NCBI GenBank assembly: GCA_017882265.1 | Contig: JADGPW010000180.1 | Span: forward strand, 1-64,000 | Reading direction: 5' to 3' | Length of the DNA: 64,000 nucleotides | Source of the DNA: Chitinophagaceae bacterium | GTDB lineage: Bacteria > Bacteroidota > Bacteroidia > Chitinophagales > Chitinophagaceae | Shown: one piece after another, positions 14,416 to 64,000 of the stretch | Layout: every line of letters starts with the position of its first letter | Position numbering within the stretch: the first letter of the stretch is position 1 | The notes under the pieces: generated by a model | Databases searched by the model: none | What the model was told of the DNA's origin: nothing | What the model saw: the letters and a program-made list of their open reading frames with translations, nothing else | Translations under genes and position numbers: made by a program

Positions 14416-14490
14416 GGCCGGTAAGGCGGTAAGGCGGTAAGAAATCATTAGCTATATATCTATTCTTATCCTCTTCCCGCCTTACCGGCA
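14416..14490. repeat. Hairpin of GGTAAGGCG words
   Basis: The left arm carries three tandem GGTAAGGCG-type words (from 14417) and the right arm carries CTTCCCGCCTTACCGGC (14473-14489), giving a 17-bp stem with one mismatch and a loop of about 40 nt. It lies between the barrel gene and lysS, same strand. I see this word at no other place in the window. Confidence 0.75.
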
Positions 14491-35272: not shown

Positions 35273-35352
35273 GGAATTGGGGATTAGGAATTAGGTCCTC
35301 AGTTGAACTTTCCTGTTTTAAGCCAAATCCCAAATTCCTAATCCCCAATTCC
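35273..35352. repeat. Word-repeat hairpin, GGAATTAGG family, copy 1
   Basis: GGAATTGGGGATTAGGAATT (35273-35292) is the exact reverse complement of 35333-35352: a 20-bp perfect stem. Extra ATTCC and ATCCC words on the right arm continue inward to about 35323. It lies 40 nt after the TPR gene stop. Other copies at 49498, 50512 and 61539. Confidence 0.85.
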
Positions 35353-38689: not shown

Positions 38690-39691
38690 ATGAAAATCCT
38701 GAAATGGGTTGGGATCGTACTCCTGATGCTGATTGTGGTGTATTTTTTAGGTCCGCAACCTTCGGAACCAATATATAGCAAAGACCTGCCGGTTATTCCT
38801 TCCCAGGCCGCGGCGCTGGAACAATATATCCGGGATCACGAAGCCCGGCATAAACTAAAACCGGACAACGAAGCCAGGATTATATGGCTACATGATTCAT
38901 TGAAAGAAAAAACCGAATACGCAGTCGTATATCTTCATGGTTTTTCCGCCAGCCAGGAAGAAGGCGATCCCATACATTATGAATTTGCTCAAAAGTTTGG
39001 ATGTAACCTGTTTTTAAGCCGGCTGGAAGATCATGGCGTAGATACCACAGAACCTCTGTTGAACCTGACCGCCGATCGTTTATGGAATTCAGCTAAAGAA
39101 GCTTACGAAATCGGCAAAAAATTAGGGAAGAAAATCATACTGATGTCCACTTCCACCGGGGGTACTCTTGCCTTAAAGTTAGCCTCCGAATATCCGGATA
39201 TTGCAGGGCTGATTCTTCTTTCTCCCAATATTGCTATTAACGATCCAAATGCCTGGGTGTTAAATAACCATTGGGGATTGCAGATCGCTGAAATGATAAA
39301 AGGAAAATATAACCATTCCAAAGACACTACGGCTTTGTATGCTCAATACTGGAACGACAAATACCGGATCGAATCCACTATACAACTGGAAGAGCTGATC
39401 GAAACAACCATGAAAGAATCTGTTTTTAGAAAAGTAACACAGCCGGCACTACTCCTGTATTATTATAAAGATGAGAAACACCAGGACCTGGTGGTAAAAG
39501 TTTCAGCCATGAAAAGAATGTTTCGCCAGCTGGGCACACCCGATAGTTTAAAAAGACAAGCCGCTATCCCTAATGCAGGGGATCATGTGATCGGTTCTTA
39601 TGTTAAATCAAAAGATGTGCAAACGGTGGAAAACGAATGTGAGAAGTTTGGGGTGGAAATTCTTCATTTAAAAGAAAGTGGCTTTAGATAA
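38690..39691 (+). CDS. Alpha/beta hydrolase (lysophospholipase-like)
   Basis: 333 aa with an N-terminal membrane anchor or signal (ILKWVGIVLLMLIVVYFLG). The fold is shown by VVYLHGFSASQEE (oxyanion segment), the nucleophile elbow MSTSTGG (Ser-x-Ser-x-Gly in place of the usual GxSxG), and a late NAGDHVIG with the catalytic His. The first position of the elbow is Ser instead of Gly, which is tolerated in some members. Likely an esterase or lipase acting at the inner-membrane periplasmic side. Its last bases, including the TAA, lie in the repeat at 39686-39814. Confidence 0.8.
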   Translation: MKILKWVGIVLLMLIVVYFLGPQPSEPIYSKDLPVIPSQAAALEQYIRDHEARHKLKPDNEARIIWLHDSLKEKTEYAVVYLHGFSASQEEGDPIHYEFAQKFGCNLFLSRLEDHGVDTTEPLLNLTADRLWNSAKEAYEIGKKLGKKIILMSTSTGGTLALKLASEYPDIAGLILLSPNIAINDPNAWVLNNHWGLQIAEMIKGKYNHSKDTTALYAQYWNDKYRIESTIQLEELIETTMKESVFRKVTQPALLLYYYKDEKHQDLVVKVSAMKRMFRQLGTPDSLKRQAAIPNAGDHVIGSYVKSKDVQTVENECEKFGVEILHLKESGFR

Positions 39692-39814
39692 AAACTAAAA
39701 GTGAATAGATAATAGTCCTCAACTGAAAAGAACTTACAGCTTTGAGAATATATCAAAGCTGTGAGGTCTTTTCGAAGTTGAGGACTATTATCTATTCCCT
39801 TTTAGTTATTATCT
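39686..39814. repeat. Word-repeat hairpin, GATAATAGTGAATAG family, copy 2
   Basis: Outer arms 39686-39724 and 39776-39814 match at 37 of 39 positions. Inside is a second stem, CTTACAGCTTTGA pairing with TCAAAGCTGTGAG, flanked by GAAAAG and CTTTTC. Nearly the whole 129 nt folds into one rod. The hydrolase stop (39689-39691) is inside the left arm. It separates convergent genes and would also stop transcription. Confidence 0.88.
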
Positions 39815-48018: not shown

Positions 48019-48286
48019 CTGGACATTTGTGGCCTGTTTCAAACAAATGATAAATTTAAAGGGGTTAAGCTTTCATAAAATAGAAGGATCTCCGGTTTTC
48101 AAAGGATTCGGAATCGGTTTTCATGGGATTTGGAATCGGATAGTTATTCATTAATATGCTAACACTCGTCTCGTTGTTTCTTGTTTGTGTGTACAAAGAA
48201 ACGCCGCATCGGGCCTGCAGAAAATAGAGTTATCCCCTATTTTATGTAGTGTTTCACTTTCAAAAGCGCTATCGTTTGCATACATG

Positions 48287-48371
48287 AAAAGTCAGTAAGT
48301 CAGTGAGACACTGAATCAGTGAGAGCCCCCATTACAAACTGTCTCACTGTCTCACTGACTTACTGACTTTT
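48287..48371. repeat. Word-repeat hairpin, GTAAGTCAGTGAG family, copy 2
   Basis: The left arm starts AAAAGTCAGTAAGTCAGTGA (from 48287) and the right arm ends with its exact complement; 24 bp pair perfectly before the words go out of register. Same words as at 1071-1202. It lies 31 nt upstream of the KASIII start codon. Confidence 0.85.
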
Positions 48372-48402
48372 CTTACTTACCTTTCTTCCTTAATTGTTTG
48401 CC

Positions 48403-50511: not shown

Positions 50512-50663
50512 GGGATTAGGAATTAGGAATTGGGAATTTGGAATTGGGCCCCCTTGTAATTGAATAATTCATTTTCTTGTAATGCCATCATATGATAAGC
50601 AATAGTTATTTAACCCAATTCGGGAATCTCCCCCTAATTCCAAATTCCAAATTCCCACCCCCC
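50512..50663. repeat. Word-repeat hairpin, GGAATTAGG family, copy 3
   Basis: The left arm (50512-50547) is a series of GGATTAGG, AATTAGG, AATTGGG and AATTTGG words; the right arm (about 50614-50656) is the complement. The last codons of the convergent patatin gene (LFGIGK and the stop, to 50664) continue the same word. The loop is about 65 nt. Confidence 0.8.
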
Positions 50664-55583: not shown

Positions 55584-55716
55584 AGATAAAAGATAATAGT
55601 GAATAGAGAATAGTCTTTACAGCAGAAAAAGACCCTACAGCTTTGATAAGGTATCAAATCTGTAGGGTCTTTCCGTATTTAATGAACTATTAAATATTCA
55701 CTATTATCTTTTTACT
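55584..55716. repeat. Word-repeat hairpin, GATAATAGTGAATAG family, copy 3
   Basis: Outer arms begin at 55584 (AGATAAAAGATAATAGTGAA) and end at 55716. The inner stem AAAGACCCTACAGCTTTGAT pairs with ATCAAATCTGTAGGGTCTTT (19 of 20, 5-nt loop). The stop of the leftward cytochrome gene (55715-55717) overlaps the right arm. Confidence 0.88.
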
Positions 55717-56855: not shown

Positions 56856-57482
56856 TTGCTAAAACCCTTTTACCAGGAGAAATTATTGGAAGCTGGCTGT
56901 GATGAAGCCGGCCGCGGGAGCTTTGCGGGCCCGGTCTTTGCCGCTGCCGTCATTTTGCCCATGGATTTTTATCATCCCCTATTGAATGATAGTAAATTGC
57001 TTACCGCGGAAGAAAGGAACGAATTAAAGCCTATTATTAAAAGGACAGCCCTTGCTTACGCCGTGGCCATGGTCGATCATAATGAAATTGACCAGATAAA
57101 CATTTTACAAGCTTCTTTTAAAGCGATGCATCTTGCTGTTGACAAGCTCAGAAAAAAACCTTCCCTTTTATTGATCGATGGTAACAGGTTTGTTCCTTAT
57201 AAGAACCTGAGACATGAATGCATCATTAAAGGGGATGGATTATTTGCCAGTATTGCTGCAGCGAGCGTGCTGGCAAAGACCCACAGGGACGCTTACATGA
57301 AACAACTGCACAATGAGTTCCCTCAGTACAACTGGAAAAGCAATAAAGGGTATGGTACCCCTGAGCATCGAGATGCTATCCAGGTTCATGGTCTTTGCAA
57401 GTACCACCGTAAAAGTTTTGCCATTGATCCTGCCCAATATGCGCTTTTCGGCGAAGAGGGTGAAGTTGGATCAGACGATTAA
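56856..57482 (+). CDS. rnhB: Ribonuclease HII
   Basis: 208 aa from a TTG start; no ATG is available before the catalytic CDEAGRGSFAGP (residues ~15-26), so the TTG is likely real. It cleaves the RNA strand of RNA-DNA hybrids and single ribonucleotides. The catalytic acids follow in LLNDSKLL, LLIDGNRF and the KAHRD-like AKTHRD helix. Length is normal. Terminator at 57667. Confidence 0.93.
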   Translation: MLKPFYQEKLLEAGCDEAGRGSFAGPVFAAAVILPMDFYHPLLNDSKLLTAEERNELKPIIKRTALAYAVAMVDHNEIDQINILQASFKAMHLAVDKLRKKPSLLLIDGNRFVPYKNLRHECIIKGDGLFASIAAASVLAKTHRDAYMKQLHNEFPQYNWKSNKGYGTPEHRDAIQVHGLCKYHRKSFAIDPAQYALFGEEGEVGSDD

Positions 57483-57666
57483 CCGGCCGGTCTTCAATTT
57501 CAAATATTTGTAATAATCCAGGGGGCTCATTAAACCCTGTTGCGGTTATAATGTCATAGTCGCAATCCTGGAACCGCCGTTAGGCCTCATTAAACATTTT
57601 GCCGTCCCAGGTCTTATGTTCATACCAGCAAACCATCATATAAAAAGGATCTTGTGAGTGAGCGTT

Positions 57667-57697
57667 AAAAAGCATCGTCCGGTTGGACGGTGCTTTT
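57667..57697. terminator. Shared terminator of rnhB and korB
   Basis: AAAAAGCATCGTCC pairs with GGACGGTGCTTTTG over a GGTT loop (one mismatch), with A and T runs outside, so it works in both directions between convergent genes. Confidence 0.85.
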
Positions 57698-57726
57698 GTA
57701 TTACATGACCTGTTTTTCGCGATTTC

Positions 57727-58755
57727 TTAATTTATCACCCACACCTCGTTTCCCTTTAACAGCTTATTTAAATCTGCCGGCTTTCTGGATTTAGCTTCTT
57801 CCAGTTGTTGCAACATCACATCTTCATAGCAGGGTCTGTTGGTTTGGTAGAATACGCCAAAGGGTCTTGGCAAATGACCTTCCCCTTTCGGGTCATCGAA
57901 TATGCGGGTCAATATCTGGGCCTTATAAATATCTTCCTCATCGTGTATCCAAAGTTCATCGGCGCTATGCCCTTCATCGAGGTGTACGATCACGGGCTTA
58001 AACCCGTCTAATTTTATTCCTTTGTTATTGCCGGCGCCAAATAATAAAGGTTTGCCTTGTTCCAGGAAAAGTGTTTCCTGGGGCTTGCTTCCTTTTTCCG
58101 TGAAAATCTCAAAAGCACCGTCATTGAAGATATTGCAGTTCTGATATATTTCTAAAAAAGAAGCCCCTTTATGATGATGCGTTCGCTGCAACATCGCCTG
58201 TAAATGTTTGGGGTCGCGGTCCATGCTCCGGGCTACAAATGTGGCATCGGCTCCCAGGGCCAGCGCCAGGGGATTGAACGGGTGGTCAATGCTTCCCATG
58301 GGTGTCGACTTAGTAATTTTATGTTCCTCCGATGTAGGGGAATATTGACCTTTTGTCAATCCATATATCTGGTTATTAAAAAGTAATATATTGACATCAA
58401 AATTTCTGCGTAGCAAATGGATAGTATGATTCCCCCCGATACTTAAACCATCCCCATCGCCGGTGACGATCCAGACACTTAATTCAGGACGGGATGCTTT
58501 TAATCCGGATGCCACCGCGGTGGCCCGGCCATGGATAGAATGCATGCCATAAGTATTCATATAATAAGGAAACCGGCTGCTGCAGCCAATCCCCGATATG
58601 ATCACTATATTTTCCCGGGCAATGCCTAAAGTGGCCATCACTTTCTGTACCTGGGCCAGGATGGAGTAGTCTCCGCAACCGGGACACCAGCGGACTTCCT
58701 GGTCGGTGACAAAGTCCTTCGCTGTTAAAGCAGGAGCTGTTATTGTTTCACTCAT
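57727..58755 (-). CDS. korB: 2-oxoacid:ferredoxin oxidoreductase, beta subunit (KorB-like)
   Basis: 342 aa TPP-binding subunit. VRWCPGCGDYSILAQVQ gives cluster-binding Cys, HSIHGRATAVASGLKASRPE and TGDGDGLSIGGNHTIHLLRRN hold the thiamine-diphosphate/Mg site (GDGDG). It oxidatively decarboxylates 2-oxoglutarate or similar acids with ferredoxin. Normally korA lies directly upstream; here the upstream neighbour is an inverted-repeat element, so the alpha subunit must be elsewhere or lost. Confidence 0.9.
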   Translation of the reverse strand: MSETITAPALTAKDFVTDQEVRWCPGCGDYSILAQVQKVMATLGIARENIVIISGIGCSSRFPYYMNTYGMHSIHGRATAVASGLKASRPELSVWIVTGDGDGLSIGGNHTIHLLRRNFDVNILLFNNQIYGLTKGQYSPTSEEHKITKSTPMGSIDHPFNPLALALGADATFVARSMDRDPKHLQAMLQRTHHHKGASFLEIYQNCNIFNDGAFEIFTEKGSKPQETLFLEQGKPLLFGAGNNKGIKLDGFKPVIVHLDEGHSADELWIHDEEDIYKAQILTRIFDDPKGEGHLPRPFGVFYQTNRPCYEDVMLQQLEEAKSRKPADLNKLLKGNEVWVIN

Positions 58756-58792
58756 GGTAAATATTTCTGTGCAAATTTACTGAATATTGAAT

Positions 58793-59350
58793 GAATGTCG
58801 AACAGATGAACAAGGAATGTAGAATGCAGAAATAAAAGAGTCATTATTTCCCTTGATTAACAGGGACAAAAACCCTGAATATTGGGGAAAATCATCCTGT
58901 TTATTGTGAGACTTCTGGTTTCTTTTGTTTAAACAAAAATGTATGCAAAAAAAGTATGATATGGAGGAATGGCTGATCAATTTTGCAAGCGAATGCATAA
59001 ATGTGGCTGAGCATTTACCCAAAATGATTACCCGGTATCACATTGCTTCATATTGATTCGCTCATCAACCTCACCAGAGCTTCATTATGGTGAGGCACAG
59101 GCAGCAGAAAGCAGTAGTGATTTCATTCCTAAAATGAAGATCTGTTTGAAGGAATTAAGAGAGACATTCAATTGCCTGAAGTTGATTCAAAAGAAAGAAT
59201 GGTATGATGAAACAAAACTGACAGAGCTTATTTTGGAAAATACTGAACTTATTGCAATTTTTGTTTCAAGTTTGAAAACAGCCCATAATAACAGGAAATG
59301 ACCGGCCTTACTTCTACATTCTGCATTCCTTGCTCATCTGTTCGACATTC
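58793..59350. mobile_element. Inverted-repeat unit enclosing a four-helix-bundle gene
   Basis: GAATGTCGAACAGATGAACA (start of the 58793-58831 arm, 39 nt) and the arm 59312-59350 are reverse complements at 36 of 39 positions. Between them (about 480 nt) lies the broken four-helix-bundle gene, whose stop ends 11 nt before the right arm. The unit lies between korB and the S9 peptidase, whose start is 31 nt beyond the right arm. A related but empty copy is at 63062-63174. Mobility is inferred from this layout; no transposase is visible. Confidence 0.7.
58943..59301 (+). pseudogene. Four-helix-bundle protein (S23/IVP, Avd-like), frameshifted
   Basis: The 5' part (58943-59056) encodes MQKKYDMEEWLINFASECIN and then LPKMITRYHIAS before a TGA; the 3' part, in another frame from 59053, encodes LIRSSTSPELHYGEAQAAES and then FIPKMKICLKELRETFNCLK. 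Joined at HIAS-LIRSS with one missing base, they make a ~119-aa protein of the four-helix-bundle family, encoded by 23S rRNA intervening sequences and related to DGR accessory Avd. Single-base deletion or a sequencing error. Confidence 0.85.
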
Positions 59351-59381
59351 CTTCCTATTTTCAACATCCAAATTTCCCATC

Positions 59382-61538
59382 ATGAGAAGAATTTTATCTG
59401 CATTGCTTATCCTGTTGCTTTCGCATTACGCATATGCACAAAACGGAAAAGAGCCTGTTAAAGTAACTGATATGCTTAGGATAAGATCTATCAATGGGGT
59501 AACGCTTAGTAAAGACGCCTCCAAGGCAGTTTTTACTGTCACCGCCATTGAACCGGATGGCGATAGCAAGCTGGAATATAAATATGAAAACCAGGTATGG
59601 ATGGTGCCAACCGATGGCAATTCAATGCCAAAACAACTGACCACCAAAGAAGGCTCATCGCAGGCCAGTTTTAGTCCGGATGGAAAACAAATTGCTTTTG
59701 TCCGCCTGGTCGATACGAAACCGCAGATCTTTTTATTATCGCTGGATGGAGGTGAAGCCGTTCAGCTTACCAATTATAAATACGGTGCGGGCACACCCAA
59801 ATGGAGTCCTGATGGAAAACAGATCCTCTTCTCCTCTAATATTACCCTGAAGGACCTGTTAAAAGATTCCCTGCTCAATCCCGGCAAAGAAGTCCCGAAA
59901 TGGTCTATGGAAAAACCCAGCTTTGATAAAAACCAGCAACTAAAGACATCCGCTGCCAAAGCGGATCCCGATGGAAGCCTGGAAGAGATCAGGGCCTACC
60001 TGGAAAATAATGCAACAGATAAAAAAGCGAAAGTGGTGAATAAGCTGAATTTCCAGGATGAATCAGATGTGAATGCCGAGTTGAGTTTTAATTATTTCTT
60101 TATCACAGATGCCCGGCCTGATGCCAAACCTGTTGCGGTGACCAGTGGTTTCTATCGTTATAATTTTGCCGATTTTACGCCGGATGGAAAACAGATCATT
60201 CTGGCAGCGGATATTGATTCATTACAAAATCCCGACCGTTCCCTGGAAATGGAGATTTTTATAGAGAATGCAGATGGTACCGGGATACGAAAATTATTGG
60301 GAGAAGAAGGTAAAACTTATAACTCTCCCACGATCTCCCCTTCGGGAAAATGGCTGGCCTTCCAATATGGTAATACTTCATTTGTCAGTATACCTACCCT
60401 GGCCATCATGCCATTAAATGGTTCAGCGAAAGATATCGTGGATATCCCATTTGATCGAAGTAAAGGAAACCTTGTCTGGAGCCCTGATGAAAAATATATT
60501 TACTTCCTGGCCCAAAGCAATGGCGGCGCCCCTATTTACCGGGCCGAGATAGCCACAAAAAAAACAGAACAGCTGACTGATTACAATAGCGGCGTTGGTA
60601 GTTTTGACCTTGTCAATAATAAAATTGTTTTTGCAAAAACAGAAGTGCCTGATCCGTTTGAAGTCTATCTTTCGGATGAAAAAGGAAAAGGCCAAAAACG
60701 GATCAGTACTTTCAACTACGATTGGATCTCATCAAAAAAAATCAGCCTGCCTGAAAAACACAATTTTACCAATACGAAGGGGATGAGTGTTGAATACTGG
60801 GTGATGAAACCTGCTAATTATGAACCCGGAAAAAAATATCCCCTGTTATTGGAGATACATGGCGGACCCTCTGCTATGTGGGGTCCCGGAGAAAACACGA
60901 TGTGGCATGAATTCCAGTATTTCTGTAGTAAAGGATATGGTATAGTATACTGCAATCCCCGTGGTAGTGGAGGCTATGGACTTGATTTTTTGCGGGATAA
61001 TATAAATGATTGGGGCACTGGTCCTACCAGTGATGTATTGACCGCATTGGATAAAACCATTGCTGCTGAAAGCTGGGCGGATACTTCCCGGTTATTGATA
61101 ACAGGTGGTTCTTATGCAGGCTATTTGGTAGCCTGGATCATTGGTCATGATCATCGTTTCAAAGCCGCTTGCTCACAACGCGGTGTTTATGACTTGTCAA
61201 CTTTTTTTGGGGAAGGTAATGCCTGGCGTTTAGTCCCTAATTATTTTGGCGGCTATCCATGGGAGGCGGCCACCAAAGCAATACTGGAGCGGGAATCCCC
61301 TATCAATTATGTCAGGAATATTATTACACCCTATATCATTTTTCATGGTGAAAATGATCGCCGCACGGGTTTTGTGGAAAGTGAAATGATGTACCGGAGT
61401 CTCAAGGTACTGGGCAGACCTGTCGAATATGTCCGTCACCCCGGGGGCACCCATGAATTGACACGAAGTGGTAATAACCGGCAACGGATCGACCAGATGC
61501 TGAGAACCTATGAGTTTTTTGAACGGTGGGTCAAATAA
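59382..61538 (+). CDS. S9 family peptidase (prolyl oligopeptidase/DPP-like)
   Basis: 718 aa from the ATG at 59382; the frame is open upstream but that part overlaps the inverted-repeat arm. Signal peptide ILSALLILLLSHYAYAQ. N-terminal beta-propeller with WD40/TolB-like repeats (SFSPDGKQIAFVR, KWSPDGKQILFSS, VWSPDEKYIYFLA), then the alpha/beta-hydrolase domain: nucleophile GGSYAGY (Ser577), HGENDRRTGFVESE (Asp), GGTHELTRSGNN (His). It removes dipeptides or acts on oligopeptides in the periplasm. Confidence 0.9.
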   Translation: MRRILSALLILLLSHYAYAQNGKEPVKVTDMLRIRSINGVTLSKDASKAVFTVTAIEPDGDSKLEYKYENQVWMVPTDGNSMPKQLTTKEGSSQASFSPDGKQIAFVRLVDTKPQIFLLSLDGGEAVQLTNYKYGAGTPKWSPDGKQILFSSNITLKDLLKDSLLNPGKEVPKWSMEKPSFDKNQQLKTSAAKADPDGSLEEIRAYLENNATDKKAKVVNKLNFQDESDVNAELSFNYFFITDARPDAKPVAVTSGFYRYNFADFTPDGKQIILAADIDSLQNPDRSLEMEIFIENADGTGIRKLLGEEGKTYNSPTISPSGKWLAFQYGNTSFVSIPTLAIMPLNGSAKDIVDIPFDRSKGNLVWSPDEKYIYFLAQSNGGAPIYRAEIATKKTEQLTDYNSGVGSFDLVNNKIVFAKTEVPDPFEVYLSDEKGKGQKRISTFNYDWISSKKISLPEKHNFTNTKGMSVEYWVMKPANYEPGKKYPLLLEIHGGPSAMWGPGENTMWHEFQYFCSKGYGIVYCNPRGSGGYGLDFLRDNINDWGTGPTSDVLTALDKTIAAESWADTSRLLITGGSYAGYLVAWIIGHDHRFKAACSQRGVYDLSTFFGEGNAWRLVPNYFGGYPWEAATKAILERESPINYVRNIITPYIIFHGENDRRTGFVESEMMYRSLKVLGRPVEYVRHPGGTHELTRSGNNRQRIDQMLRTYEFFERWVK

Positions 61539-61628
61539 GGAATTGGTAATTAGGAATTGGGATTAGGTTTTACAATTGAAATTTCCTTTTGTTTTCTTCC
61601 AAATTCCAAATTCCTAATTCCCAATTCC
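61539..61628. repeat. Word-repeat hairpin, GGAATTAGG family, copy 4
   Basis: Left arm 61539-61567 (GGAATTGGTAATTAGGAATT) begins right after the S9 peptidase TAA. Right arm 61599-61628 is its near-complement. Loop about 31 nt. It lies between two co-directional genes. Confidence 0.85.
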
Positions 61629-61654
61629 TCTAACTTACAGCATAATCAACTATA

Positions 61655-63067
61655 ATGAATACTCCTTCATTTGACTTTGGCATGATCGGTCTCGGCGTAA
61701 TGGGCCGCAATCTTTTACTCAATATGGCCGATCATGGTTATGCCGTGATTGGTTTTGATAAAGACCTGGCAAAAGGAACCGCATTGGAATCGGCTGCCTC
61801 TCCGGGAACCGCCGTAAAAGCTGTCAGCACCCTGGCGGAAATGGTACAGCAGTTGAAAACACCGCGTAAACTGATGATGCTGGTCCCGGCTGGTCCGATA
61901 GTAGACAGTGTGATCAGCGACCTTCTCCCCCTGTTAGAAAAAGGGGATATTGTTATTGACGGCGGCAATTCACACTATAAGGACACATTACTACGTATCA
62001 ATTTTCTGGAAGATAAGAATATTCATTTCATGAGTATGGGAATTAGCGGGGGAGAGCATGGCGCAAGGACGGGCCCCAGCATTATGCCCGGTGGAGATCA
62101 GCTTGCCTGGCAGCAGCTAAAACCCATACTGGAAGCTGTATCTGCAAAAGTAAATGATACGCCTTGTGTAGCTTATATGGGAAAAGCCGCTGCCGGTCAT
62201 TATGTAAAAATGGTGCATAACGGGATCGAATATGCTATCATGCAACTGATCAGTGAGGTGTATGACATTTTAAAAAGACAGGTAGGCCTAACCAATGATG
62301 AATTGCATTCACTTTTTAAAAAATGGAATGAGGGGGAGATGCAATCCTATTTAATAGAGATCACCCGTGATATTTTTTTGAAAGAAGATGAACTGAGTAA
62401 GAACCGGCTGGTTGATATGATACTGGACAAGGCGGGTTCCAAGGGTACCGGTAAATGGACGTCACAGGATGCCATGGACCTGCCTGTTCCGATCCCCACC
62501 ATTGATATTGCTGTTGCCATGAGGGATCTTTCTGTTTTTAAAGATGAACGGGTAGCCGCAGCTGCTTTGTACAAACCGAGGATCAAAACAGTGGGCCCCC
62601 ATAAAGAAAAATTCATTCACCAACTTCATGATGGGTTATATTTCGCTACGATCATTTGTTATGCACAGGGTCTCGCTTTACTGCATAATGCATCACCTGC
62701 ATTACAAATGGATATTCCGCTACCCGACGTGGTACGCATCTGGAGAGGGGGATGTATCATCCGTTCTTCCTTACTCGAATTATTTATGACCGCTTTTAAG
62801 AAGGATAAGCAATTAGCTAATATTTTACTGAACAAAAAACTGTCTTCCCGGATAAAAAAGAAACAGGCTGCCATACGCAAAGTTGTTCAACAGGGCAGTT
62901 CGGCCAGGATACCAGTGGCCGGCCTGATGAGTGCGCTGGCTTATTTTGATGCCTATTGTACTGAGCGGATGCCGGTCAACCTGGTACAGGCCCAGCGGGA
63001 TTGTTTCGGGGCGCATACTTACCAGCGGGTTGATAGGGAGGGGAGCTTTCATACGGAGTGGGAATGA
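61655..63067 (+). CDS. gnd: 6-phosphogluconate dehydrogenase, decarboxylating
   Basis: 470 aa. NADP-binding GLGVMGRNLLLNMADHGY at the N-terminus; active-site region SGGEHGARTGPSIMPGGD and the conserved AAAGHYVKMVHNGIEYAIMQ. It converts 6-phosphogluconate to ribulose 5-phosphate, CO2 and NADPH. zwf follows, so the oxidative pentose phosphate pathway is encoded together. The stop TGA is inside the repeat that follows, and the last residues (HTEWE) precede it. Confidence 0.95.
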   Translation: MNTPSFDFGMIGLGVMGRNLLLNMADHGYAVIGFDKDLAKGTALESAASPGTAVKAVSTLAEMVQQLKTPRKLMMLVPAGPIVDSVISDLLPLLEKGDIVIDGGNSHYKDTLLRINFLEDKNIHFMSMGISGGEHGARTGPSIMPGGDQLAWQQLKPILEAVSAKVNDTPCVAYMGKAAAGHYVKMVHNGIEYAIMQLISEVYDILKRQVGLTNDELHSLFKKWNEGEMQSYLIEITRDIFLKEDELSKNRLVDMILDKAGSKGTGKWTSQDAMDLPVPIPTIDIAVAMRDLSVFKDERVAAAALYKPRIKTVGPHKEKFIHQLHDGLYFATIICYAQGLALLHNASPALQMDIPLPDVVRIWRGGCIIRSSLLELFMTAFKKDKQLANILLNKKLSSRIKKKQAAIRKVVQQGSSARIPVAGLMSALAYFDAYCTERMPVNLVQAQRDCFGAHTYQRVDREGSFHTEWE

Positions 63068-63174
63068 ATGTCGAACCGAAGAACAAGGATTTCAGAACAG
63101 ATGACATACGTACATTCATAACGAATGCACCTTCCTTCGTAATTTGATATTCCTTGTTCATCTGTTCGATATTC
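63062..63174. repeat. GAATGTCGAACAGATG-type inverted repeat, empty copy
   Basis: The left arm GAATGAATGTCGAACCGAAG (63062-63090) pairs with the right arm at 63149-63174, which ends with the complement of GAATATCGAACAGATGAACA. The interior is only about 58 nt and has no gene. The gnd stop (63065-63067) is in the left arm. Same word family as the unit at 58793-59350. Confidence 0.75.
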
Positions 63175-63205
63175 AAAACAAAATATATAACTGAATACGT
63201 ATTTA

Positions 63206-64000
63206 ATGGAAAATAAAAAAATGAAAGCCTCCACCATTCTTTTCATCTTCGGTGGTAGTGGCGATCTGACCAATCGTAAGCTGATACCGGCTTTATACAA
63301 TTTGTTTTTAGACAACTACCTGCCCGAAAAATTTATCGTGGTGGGCGTAGGGCGTACTTCCTTTGCTTCCGATGAAGAATACCGCAACAAGTTATGGGAA
63401 GGCGTGAATGAATTCTCGCGCCGGAAAGATGAACTGAGCCTGCAGTGGCAAAATTTTGCAAACTATGTGTCGTATCACGAGCTGGACCTGTTAGCCGATG
63501 ACACGTATCAAAAAATAAATGACTGGATCAATTCCAAGGCTGAAGAATGGAAGGTGCAACCTACCGTGATATTTTATATGGCGGTGGCGCCCCAGTTGGT
63601 CCCCCCCATTGCCAAAAAATTATCCGAACATAAATTATGTACCGATTGCGCGAAAACCAGGATGGTTTTTGAGAAACCCTTTGGGAATGATTGGCAAAGC
63701 GCACATGAATTGAACCAGGTGCTCAGCAGTATGTTTGATGAGGAGCAGATATTCCGTATTGATCATTACCTGGGCAAAGAAACCGTTCAGAATATCCTTG
63801 CTTTTCGTTTTGCTAATGCTTTGTTTGAACCCATCTGGAGCAATAACTATATCGATCATGTTCAGATCACCGTGGCCGAAACGGTGGGCGTTGAAGACAG
63901 GGGAGGATATTATGAACAGGCAGGAGCTTTACGGGATATGGTGCAAAACCATATCCTCCAATTATTGTGCATGATCGCCATGGAGCCCCCGGTTTCATTT
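63206..64000 (+). CDS. zwf: Glucose-6-phosphate 1-dehydrogenase, 5' part
   Basis: 265 codons visible, running open off the end of the window. The NADP-binding FIFGGSGDLTNRKL is near residue 14, then EKPFG and the substrate-binding RIDHYLGKETVQN. It starts at ATG 63206 (MENKKMKAS); an internal ATG at residue 6 is an alternative. First step of the oxidative pentose phosphate pathway, directly after gnd. The 3' end is not in the window. Confidence 0.93.
   Translation, partial: MENKKMKASTILFIFGGSGDLTNRKLIPALYNLFLDNYLPEKFIVVGVGRTSFASDEEYRNKLWEGVNEFSRRKDELSLQWQNFANYVSYHELDLLADDTYQKINDWINSKAEEWKVQPTVIFYMAVAPQLVPPIAKKLSEHKLCTDCAKTRMVFEKPFGNDWQSAHELNQVLSSMFDEEQIFRIDHYLGKETVQNILAFRFANALFEPIWSNNYIDHVQITVAETVGVEDRGGYYEQAGALRDMVQNHILQLLCMIAMEPPVSF

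Follow-up and report, generated by a model that had tools for sequence, protein, structure and literature searches.

What kind of element is a four-helix-bundle (4HB) gene that lies between two inverted arms, and does it move? The question is raised by a locus in a stretch of Chitinophagaceae DNA of 64,000 nucleotides, referred to here as the window. A precedent comes from the 23S rRNA intervening sequences of Leptospira and Coxiella, in which terminal inverted repeats surround an S23/IVP ORF of the 4HB family. These intervening sequences are sporadically distributed, their horizontal acquisition and mobility have been proposed, and it has been described as unclear where they and their ORF come from and what they do (PMC4990558).

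A decayed 4HB gene between inverted arms

The features at the locus are as follows.

57727..58755, minus strand: neighboring gene of the 2-oxoacid:ferredoxin oxidoreductase beta subunit type (named from sequence)
58789..58835, plus strand: left arm of the inverted repeat (42 of 47 positions complementary to the right arm, core repeated in the own genome, predicted RNA pairing)
58943..59301, plus strand: 4HB (PF05635/TIGR02436) pseudogene (frames and profile scores)
59308..59354, minus strand: right arm of the inverted repeat (complementarity to the left arm)
59382..61538, plus strand: neighboring gene of the S9 peptidase type (named from sequence)

The arms first proposed, at 58793-58831 and 59312-59350, were borne out as reverse complements at 36 of 39 positions. 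They lengthen to 47 nt each (58789-58835 and 59308-59354) with 42 of 47 positions complementary (89%). The left arm is made up of degenerate 7-8-nt repeats, GAATGTC GAACAGAT GAACAAG GAATGTA GAATGCA GAA. A 26-nt core of the arm has four matches in the window versus none in shuffled sequences, and the entire unit has a predicted RNA fold of -171.9 kcal/mol (z -7.5). No Rfam match was found in window positions 57000-64000 or around 15 other loci.

The initial annotation placed a 4HB gene between the arms. Its family and position stand, but the gene is a frameshifted pseudogene: the N-terminal part runs from an ATG at 58943 to a stop at 59054-59056, and the remainder is in a different frame (59053-59301). 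The end of that frame, at 59301, is close to the right arm as described, at 10 nt rather than 11. With PF05635 (cut-off 33.8 bits), the read-through with an X at the break scored 37.4 bits and the C-terminal open frame alone 30.9, under the cut-off; with TIGR02436 (cut-off 24), the C-terminal frame alone scored 51.3 bits. The genome has 13 PF05635 matches, the window copy and 12 further copies scoring above cut-off for PF05635/TIGR02436. The window copy is best read as a decayed member of a widespread class of hairpin cassettes.

The cassette sits between divergent genes. The S9-type peptidase probably starts at 59382 (signal peptide), and a longer frame from 59298 crosses the right arm. In two relatives, comparable at genus distance only, the same neighbors enclose another gene and the arms are absent; the place of the window cassette, upstream of the S9 peptidase, is taken there by a carboxymuconolactone-decarboxylase-like gene (L045, L046).

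4HB genes lie between inverted repeat arrays across phyla

We examined how common the arrangement is. Whether the arm sequence flanks 4HB genes at many sites had been posed as a check. The exact window arm occurs at one of the 13 own-genome genes, the window copy itself; the others have 7-8-nt arms of other motifs, including GAGCTAC, GTTGAGG, CAGTCGG, GTTTAAGG, CAATGGG, GTTAATTA and GTGTTAA. Altogether 12 of the 13 lie between inverted 7-8-nt arrays. Inverted arms scored above every shuffle at the window copy and at 10 of 11 testable other loci of the genome. At the eleventh (L012), arms of the GTTACGGG type are visible and the score falls within the shuffles. L006 is truncated at a contig end and was outside this test. 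L010 is unusual in that the 4HB gene lies between two hairpins.

The arrangement is visible by eye in essentially all of 30 loci from other Bacteroidota. Arms of the same locus form more stable predicted duplexes than arms of different loci, both in these 30 (-39.7 versus -28.6 kcal/mol; permutation p 2e-4) and in 10 own-genome loci (-104 versus -74; permutation p 2e-4). In a rank test against mismatched flanks, 7 of the 30 loci were individually significant (p<=0.05), a small number explained in part by loci that occupy the same genomic site; over all loci, which are not independent, the p values combine to 2e-9. A wider scan of named genomes covered 38 loci from the Selenomonadaceae and other Bacillota, the Planctomycetota, Verrucomicrobiota, candidate phyla, Chloroflexota and Alphaproteobacteria. 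Arrays can be seen in about 36, and the arm match scored 18.8 within loci versus 8.3 across loci, with 15 of the 38 above the 99th percentile of the cross comparisons. The annotation "four helix bundle protein" is present in 232 of 296 sampled Bacteroidota genomes.

Arm motifs vary from unit to unit, and the polarity is shared. Reading inward, the arms are G-rich and C-poor in 48 of 50 units with a clear alignment. The best repeat period in these 50 was 7 in 34 and 8 in 12.

As a control, we scored inverted repeats in the 180-nt flanks of 352 genes from 442 kb of the own genome. Eight genes reached the threshold of 16, two of them intact 4HB genes, in stretches partly chosen for 4HB genes or arms, which biases the rates and has little effect on the contrast with other genes. 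The repeats at the other six (6/350) come from entire hairpins, neighboring hairpins or a RAYT repeat. All inverted-repeat pairs with a 300-600-nt spacer in the 442 kb enclose 4HB genes.

Cassettes are present, absent or replaced at operon junctions

Presence/absence polymorphism, named at the outset as a test of mobility, was found at cassettes other than that of the window, where the site is comparable only at genus distance. Eight genomes of a single genus were compared at the junction between paaI-like and paaJ-like genes (paaI, paaJ and paaY are names taken from sequences): one is empty there, two carry cassette B and five carry cassette A. At the paaJ|paaY junction of the same operon in these eight genomes, two are empty, five have cassette C, one of them with an internal stop, and one has cassette D. 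The genome that is empty at paaI|paaJ is filled at paaJ|paaY, and two that are filled at paaI|paaJ are empty at paaJ|paaY. In related species, arms and gene behave as one unit: a given operon junction may hold it, lack it or hold a different cassette.

Two own-genome cassettes at different sites (L003 and L004) are homologous from arm to arm, and their local alignment stops at the outer arm ends. Both general marks of a mobile element, presence or absence at orthologous sites and homology that ends at the ends of the unit, are thus found at cassettes other than the window's. The empty sites are too diverged for a target-site duplication to be read.

Cassettes tend to follow the direction of their surroundings. 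Where both neighbors could be called, they are co-directional at 36 of 41 loci, and the 4HB gene is in the sense direction at 33 of these 36, which include orthologues and are hence not 36 independent events. The arms overlap or abut the stop and start codons of neighboring genes, and the host operons are unrelated to each other. We regard the 4HB units as probably mobile, intervening-sequence-like hairpin cassettes, a judgment in which the mode of movement is inferred. The earlier proposal of a stand-alone intervening-sequence-like element with a 4HB gene gains support from the polymorphism and from the duplicated arm-gene-arm unit; in the window itself the gene is broken.

The 4HB protein of a vertically inherited cassette is under strong purifying selection

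At a vertically inherited site, the moxR|DUF58 junction of 26 Chryseobacterium-type genomes, dN/dS for the 4HB gene was 0.095. This value indicates that the protein is important to either the element or the host, and it is as compatible with a host function as with a selfish one. A cassette between moxR-type and DUF58-type genes is common to Chryseobacterium-type genomes (L074, L075, L083, L128-L155) and the own genome (L012); its presence in both groups would be explained by ancient inheritance or by more than one insertion at the same junction.

Upkeep of arm pairing after insertion was not supported in the 26 orthologues at moxR|DUF58. Pairing of arms from the same species scored 15.3 versus 15.55 across species (p 0.71), so the two arms give no sign of co-evolution there, and pairing may matter more at insertion than afterwards. 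Two smaller orthologue sets also gave no signal; in a third, which combined two cassette types, p was 0.013.

The six intact own-genome 4HB proteins tested are basic (pI 8.5-9.8). The Chryseobacterium set averages pI 7.5, so basic charge is not general among 4HB proteins. Structures of relatives are available (2rld, 2gsc).

The strong purifying selection and the genus-wide retention at moxR|DUF58 could also point to a domesticated regulatory cassette, in which hairpin and 4HB protein tune the expression of the operon and which is not an active mobile element. Sense, intercistronic placement and arms that overlap or abut neighboring stop and start codons would fit such a role. We nevertheless find it unlikely, as the host operons are unrelated, sister species have different cassettes or none at one junction, and broken copies are tolerated.

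How a unit without a recombinase might move

Under the preferred reading of a mobile hairpin cassette, the layout would be an arm of 7-8-nt tandem repeats, G-rich inward, followed by the 4HB gene and the inverted arm. The unit would be transcribed together with the host operon, and within the mRNA its arms would pair to form a stem comparable to the terminal one of a 23S intervening sequence, possibly a substrate of RNase III. Such pairing may be what makes an insertion between cistrons tolerable. The 4HB protein, translated from the loop, may bind the stem or the nucleic acid of the arms. No recombinase was found inside the units read, which leaves movement in trans or through host repair. 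A Y1/RAYT-type transposase is a candidate enzyme by correlation.

That correlation suggests an element akin to REPs, mobilized in trans by Y1/RAYT transposases that work on single-stranded hairpin arms. REPs are, like the cassettes, short intergenic palindromes of high copy number with no transposase inside the repeat. Among 296 Bacteroidota genomes, 4HB and Y1 copy numbers correlate with rho 0.59 (0.56 and 0.57 within two families; 0.49 and 0.55 with genome size removed), unlike reverse transcriptase and 4HB copy numbers (rho 0.04), in counts that are not independent of phylogeny. The correlation offers a lead and falls short of a mechanism. Y1 matches are absent from four genomes that have 8-15 4HB matches, including one that is a single contig. 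Ordinary short palindromes rather than inverted heptamer arrays flank most RAYT genes, and none of 24 Y1 loci in comparable genomes has such arrays around it. At the RAYT genes examined, each REP is a single short palindrome (e.g. GTCCCGTAGGGAC with a GGTAG tag), unlike heptamer arrays around a gene. RAYT genes were also rejected as part of the unit, the flanks of two own-genome and 22 other-genome RAYTs carrying other repeats. We therefore give a RAYT-mobilized REP a low probability. The two own-genome Y1/RAYT genes (L049 and L050, on C123 and C55) have palindromes of their own, of the GCCCTTTCAGGGC type and a GGTAG-tagged type, which are unrelated to the cassette arms.

Could the arms instead be secondary, built as inverted arrays around a resident small gene by replication slippage and template switching? 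Tandem 7-8-nt units differ in number and some hairpins have extra outer repeats, consistent with such a history. It is rendered very improbable by the near-exclusive association with one gene family (6/350 for other genes), by the stop of L003/L004 homology at the outer arm ends and by the uniform G-rich-inward polarity. The gene-flank control already comes near to showing that other small genes of these genomes do not gain arms of this kind.

The initial annotation had likened the family to Avd, the accessory protein of diversity-generating retroelements. The kinship holds at superfamily level and below threshold, one of three intact 4HB proteins matching the Avd model NF033474 at 40.3 bits (E 3e-10; cut-off 80), which does not make these proteins Avd. 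That match, and G-rich short repeats that might resemble templated additions, are what would favor a retroelement-like system with the 4HB protein as Avd partner of a reverse transcriptase copying hairpin RNA, which we judge extremely unlikely since an RVT_1 match is absent from the own genome (assembly about 90% complete) and from 18 of 30 genomes that have 12 or more 4HB matches, with the rho of 0.04 given above. A reverse transcriptase partner is rejected as a requirement, and where the enzyme would be of the RVT_1 type and come from the same genome, the idea is already largely refuted.

Relation to 23S intervening sequences

The cassettes resemble 23S intervening sequences in having terminal inverted repeats, with predicted RNA pairing, around one ORF of the same 4HB family, and in their sporadic distribution. 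Unlike 23S intervening sequences, they are found between protein genes in many copies per genome, and their arms are 7-8-nt tandem repeats whose motif differs between copies. The window unit is not classed as a 23S intervening sequence because it lies outside the 23S rRNA gene, the location that defines them. Our search of the open-licence literature brought up no previous description of stand-alone 4HB cassettes or of the combination of arms and gene.

Hairpins without a gene

Hairpins that lack a gene but have arm motifs like those of the cassettes are common, and several hairpins without a gene are present in the window.

1070-1159, 2063-2193, 14417-14489, 35273-35352, 39686-39814, 48286-48372, 50526-50655 and 55588-55712: gene-less hairpins
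61538..61629, no strand assigned: gene-less hairpin with a different 7-nt motif, AGGAATTGGTAATTAGGAATTGGGA (inverted-repeat search)
63062..63175, no strand assigned (minus in the family listing): gene-less hairpin with arms as in the window cassette, a 109-nt short family member (repeat search)

The last of these had been described as an empty, MITE-like copy of the cassette. It exists, with the same arms and no gene, but nothing beyond the arms proved to be shared: the interiors of 12 other members of its hairpin family, a set that leaves aside the 63-kb copy itself, match the cassette interior only at the level of shuffled sequences, and the emptied cassette is rejected as a recognizable derivative. 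The repeat at 63062-63175 appears to be an arm-sharing relative, not a visibly emptied cassette. Members of the family are about 109-128 nt long (31 units, nested or overlapping in some cases); their interior is conserved in part and occurs in both orientations.

The arm core pattern has 136 copies in the 4.02-Mb own genome versus none for a reversed-pattern control. At up to two mismatches, the window arm is found in 7 of 149 genomes of the bacterial family, 122 times in the own genome, 16 times in one other and one to three times in the rest. It is strongly amplified in the own genome.

Gene-less hairpins in the 442 kb of the own genome have the G-rich-inward polarity in 27 of 28 periodic cases. 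The motifs CAGTC, AGTGTTAAG, GATAAAAG and CAATAG are common to several gene-less hairpins and to gene-bearing units of the own genome.

Heptamer repeats of Xanthomonas and Nostoc (GGGAATC, GGGGATT) are likewise G-rich 7-nt units; they occupy intergenic regions between aligned ORFs and in Xanthomonas frequently form inverted pairs, and no general association with mobile elements was reported for them (Rehm et al., PMC4692102). The text of that paper makes no mention of four-helix or S23 proteins. The cassettes too have 7-nt G-rich units and are intergenic. One could tentatively propose a broad class of mobile elements without a recombinase of their own, inverted 7-8-nt G-rich arrays with or without a 4HB gene that move between the cistrons of operons, with 23S intervening sequences as members landed in rRNA and the Xanthomonas and Nostoc heptamer repeats as related gene-less forms; we hold this class to be possible, though doubtful. 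If the association holds, 23S intervening sequences may share one class with the heptamer repeats, for which no carrier had been described (PMC4692102), and "four helix bundle protein" would gain a testable meaning as the gene of a hairpin-bounded, operon-entering cassette. It also raises the question of what moves a unit that encodes no recombinase.

The gene-less hairpins of the window other than the one at 63062-63175 number about nine; their arms, of several motif families, mostly repeat with a period of 7-8 nt, and almost all are G-rich inward. Elsewhere, a 328-nt hairpin with 84-nt arms (L125, 1868-2195) is apparently a larger or inverted-duplicated form of the 127-nt family. Two adjacent hairpins at L119 (12216-12593) have arms that are 11-nt periodic and C-rich, with a polarity opposite to that of the others.
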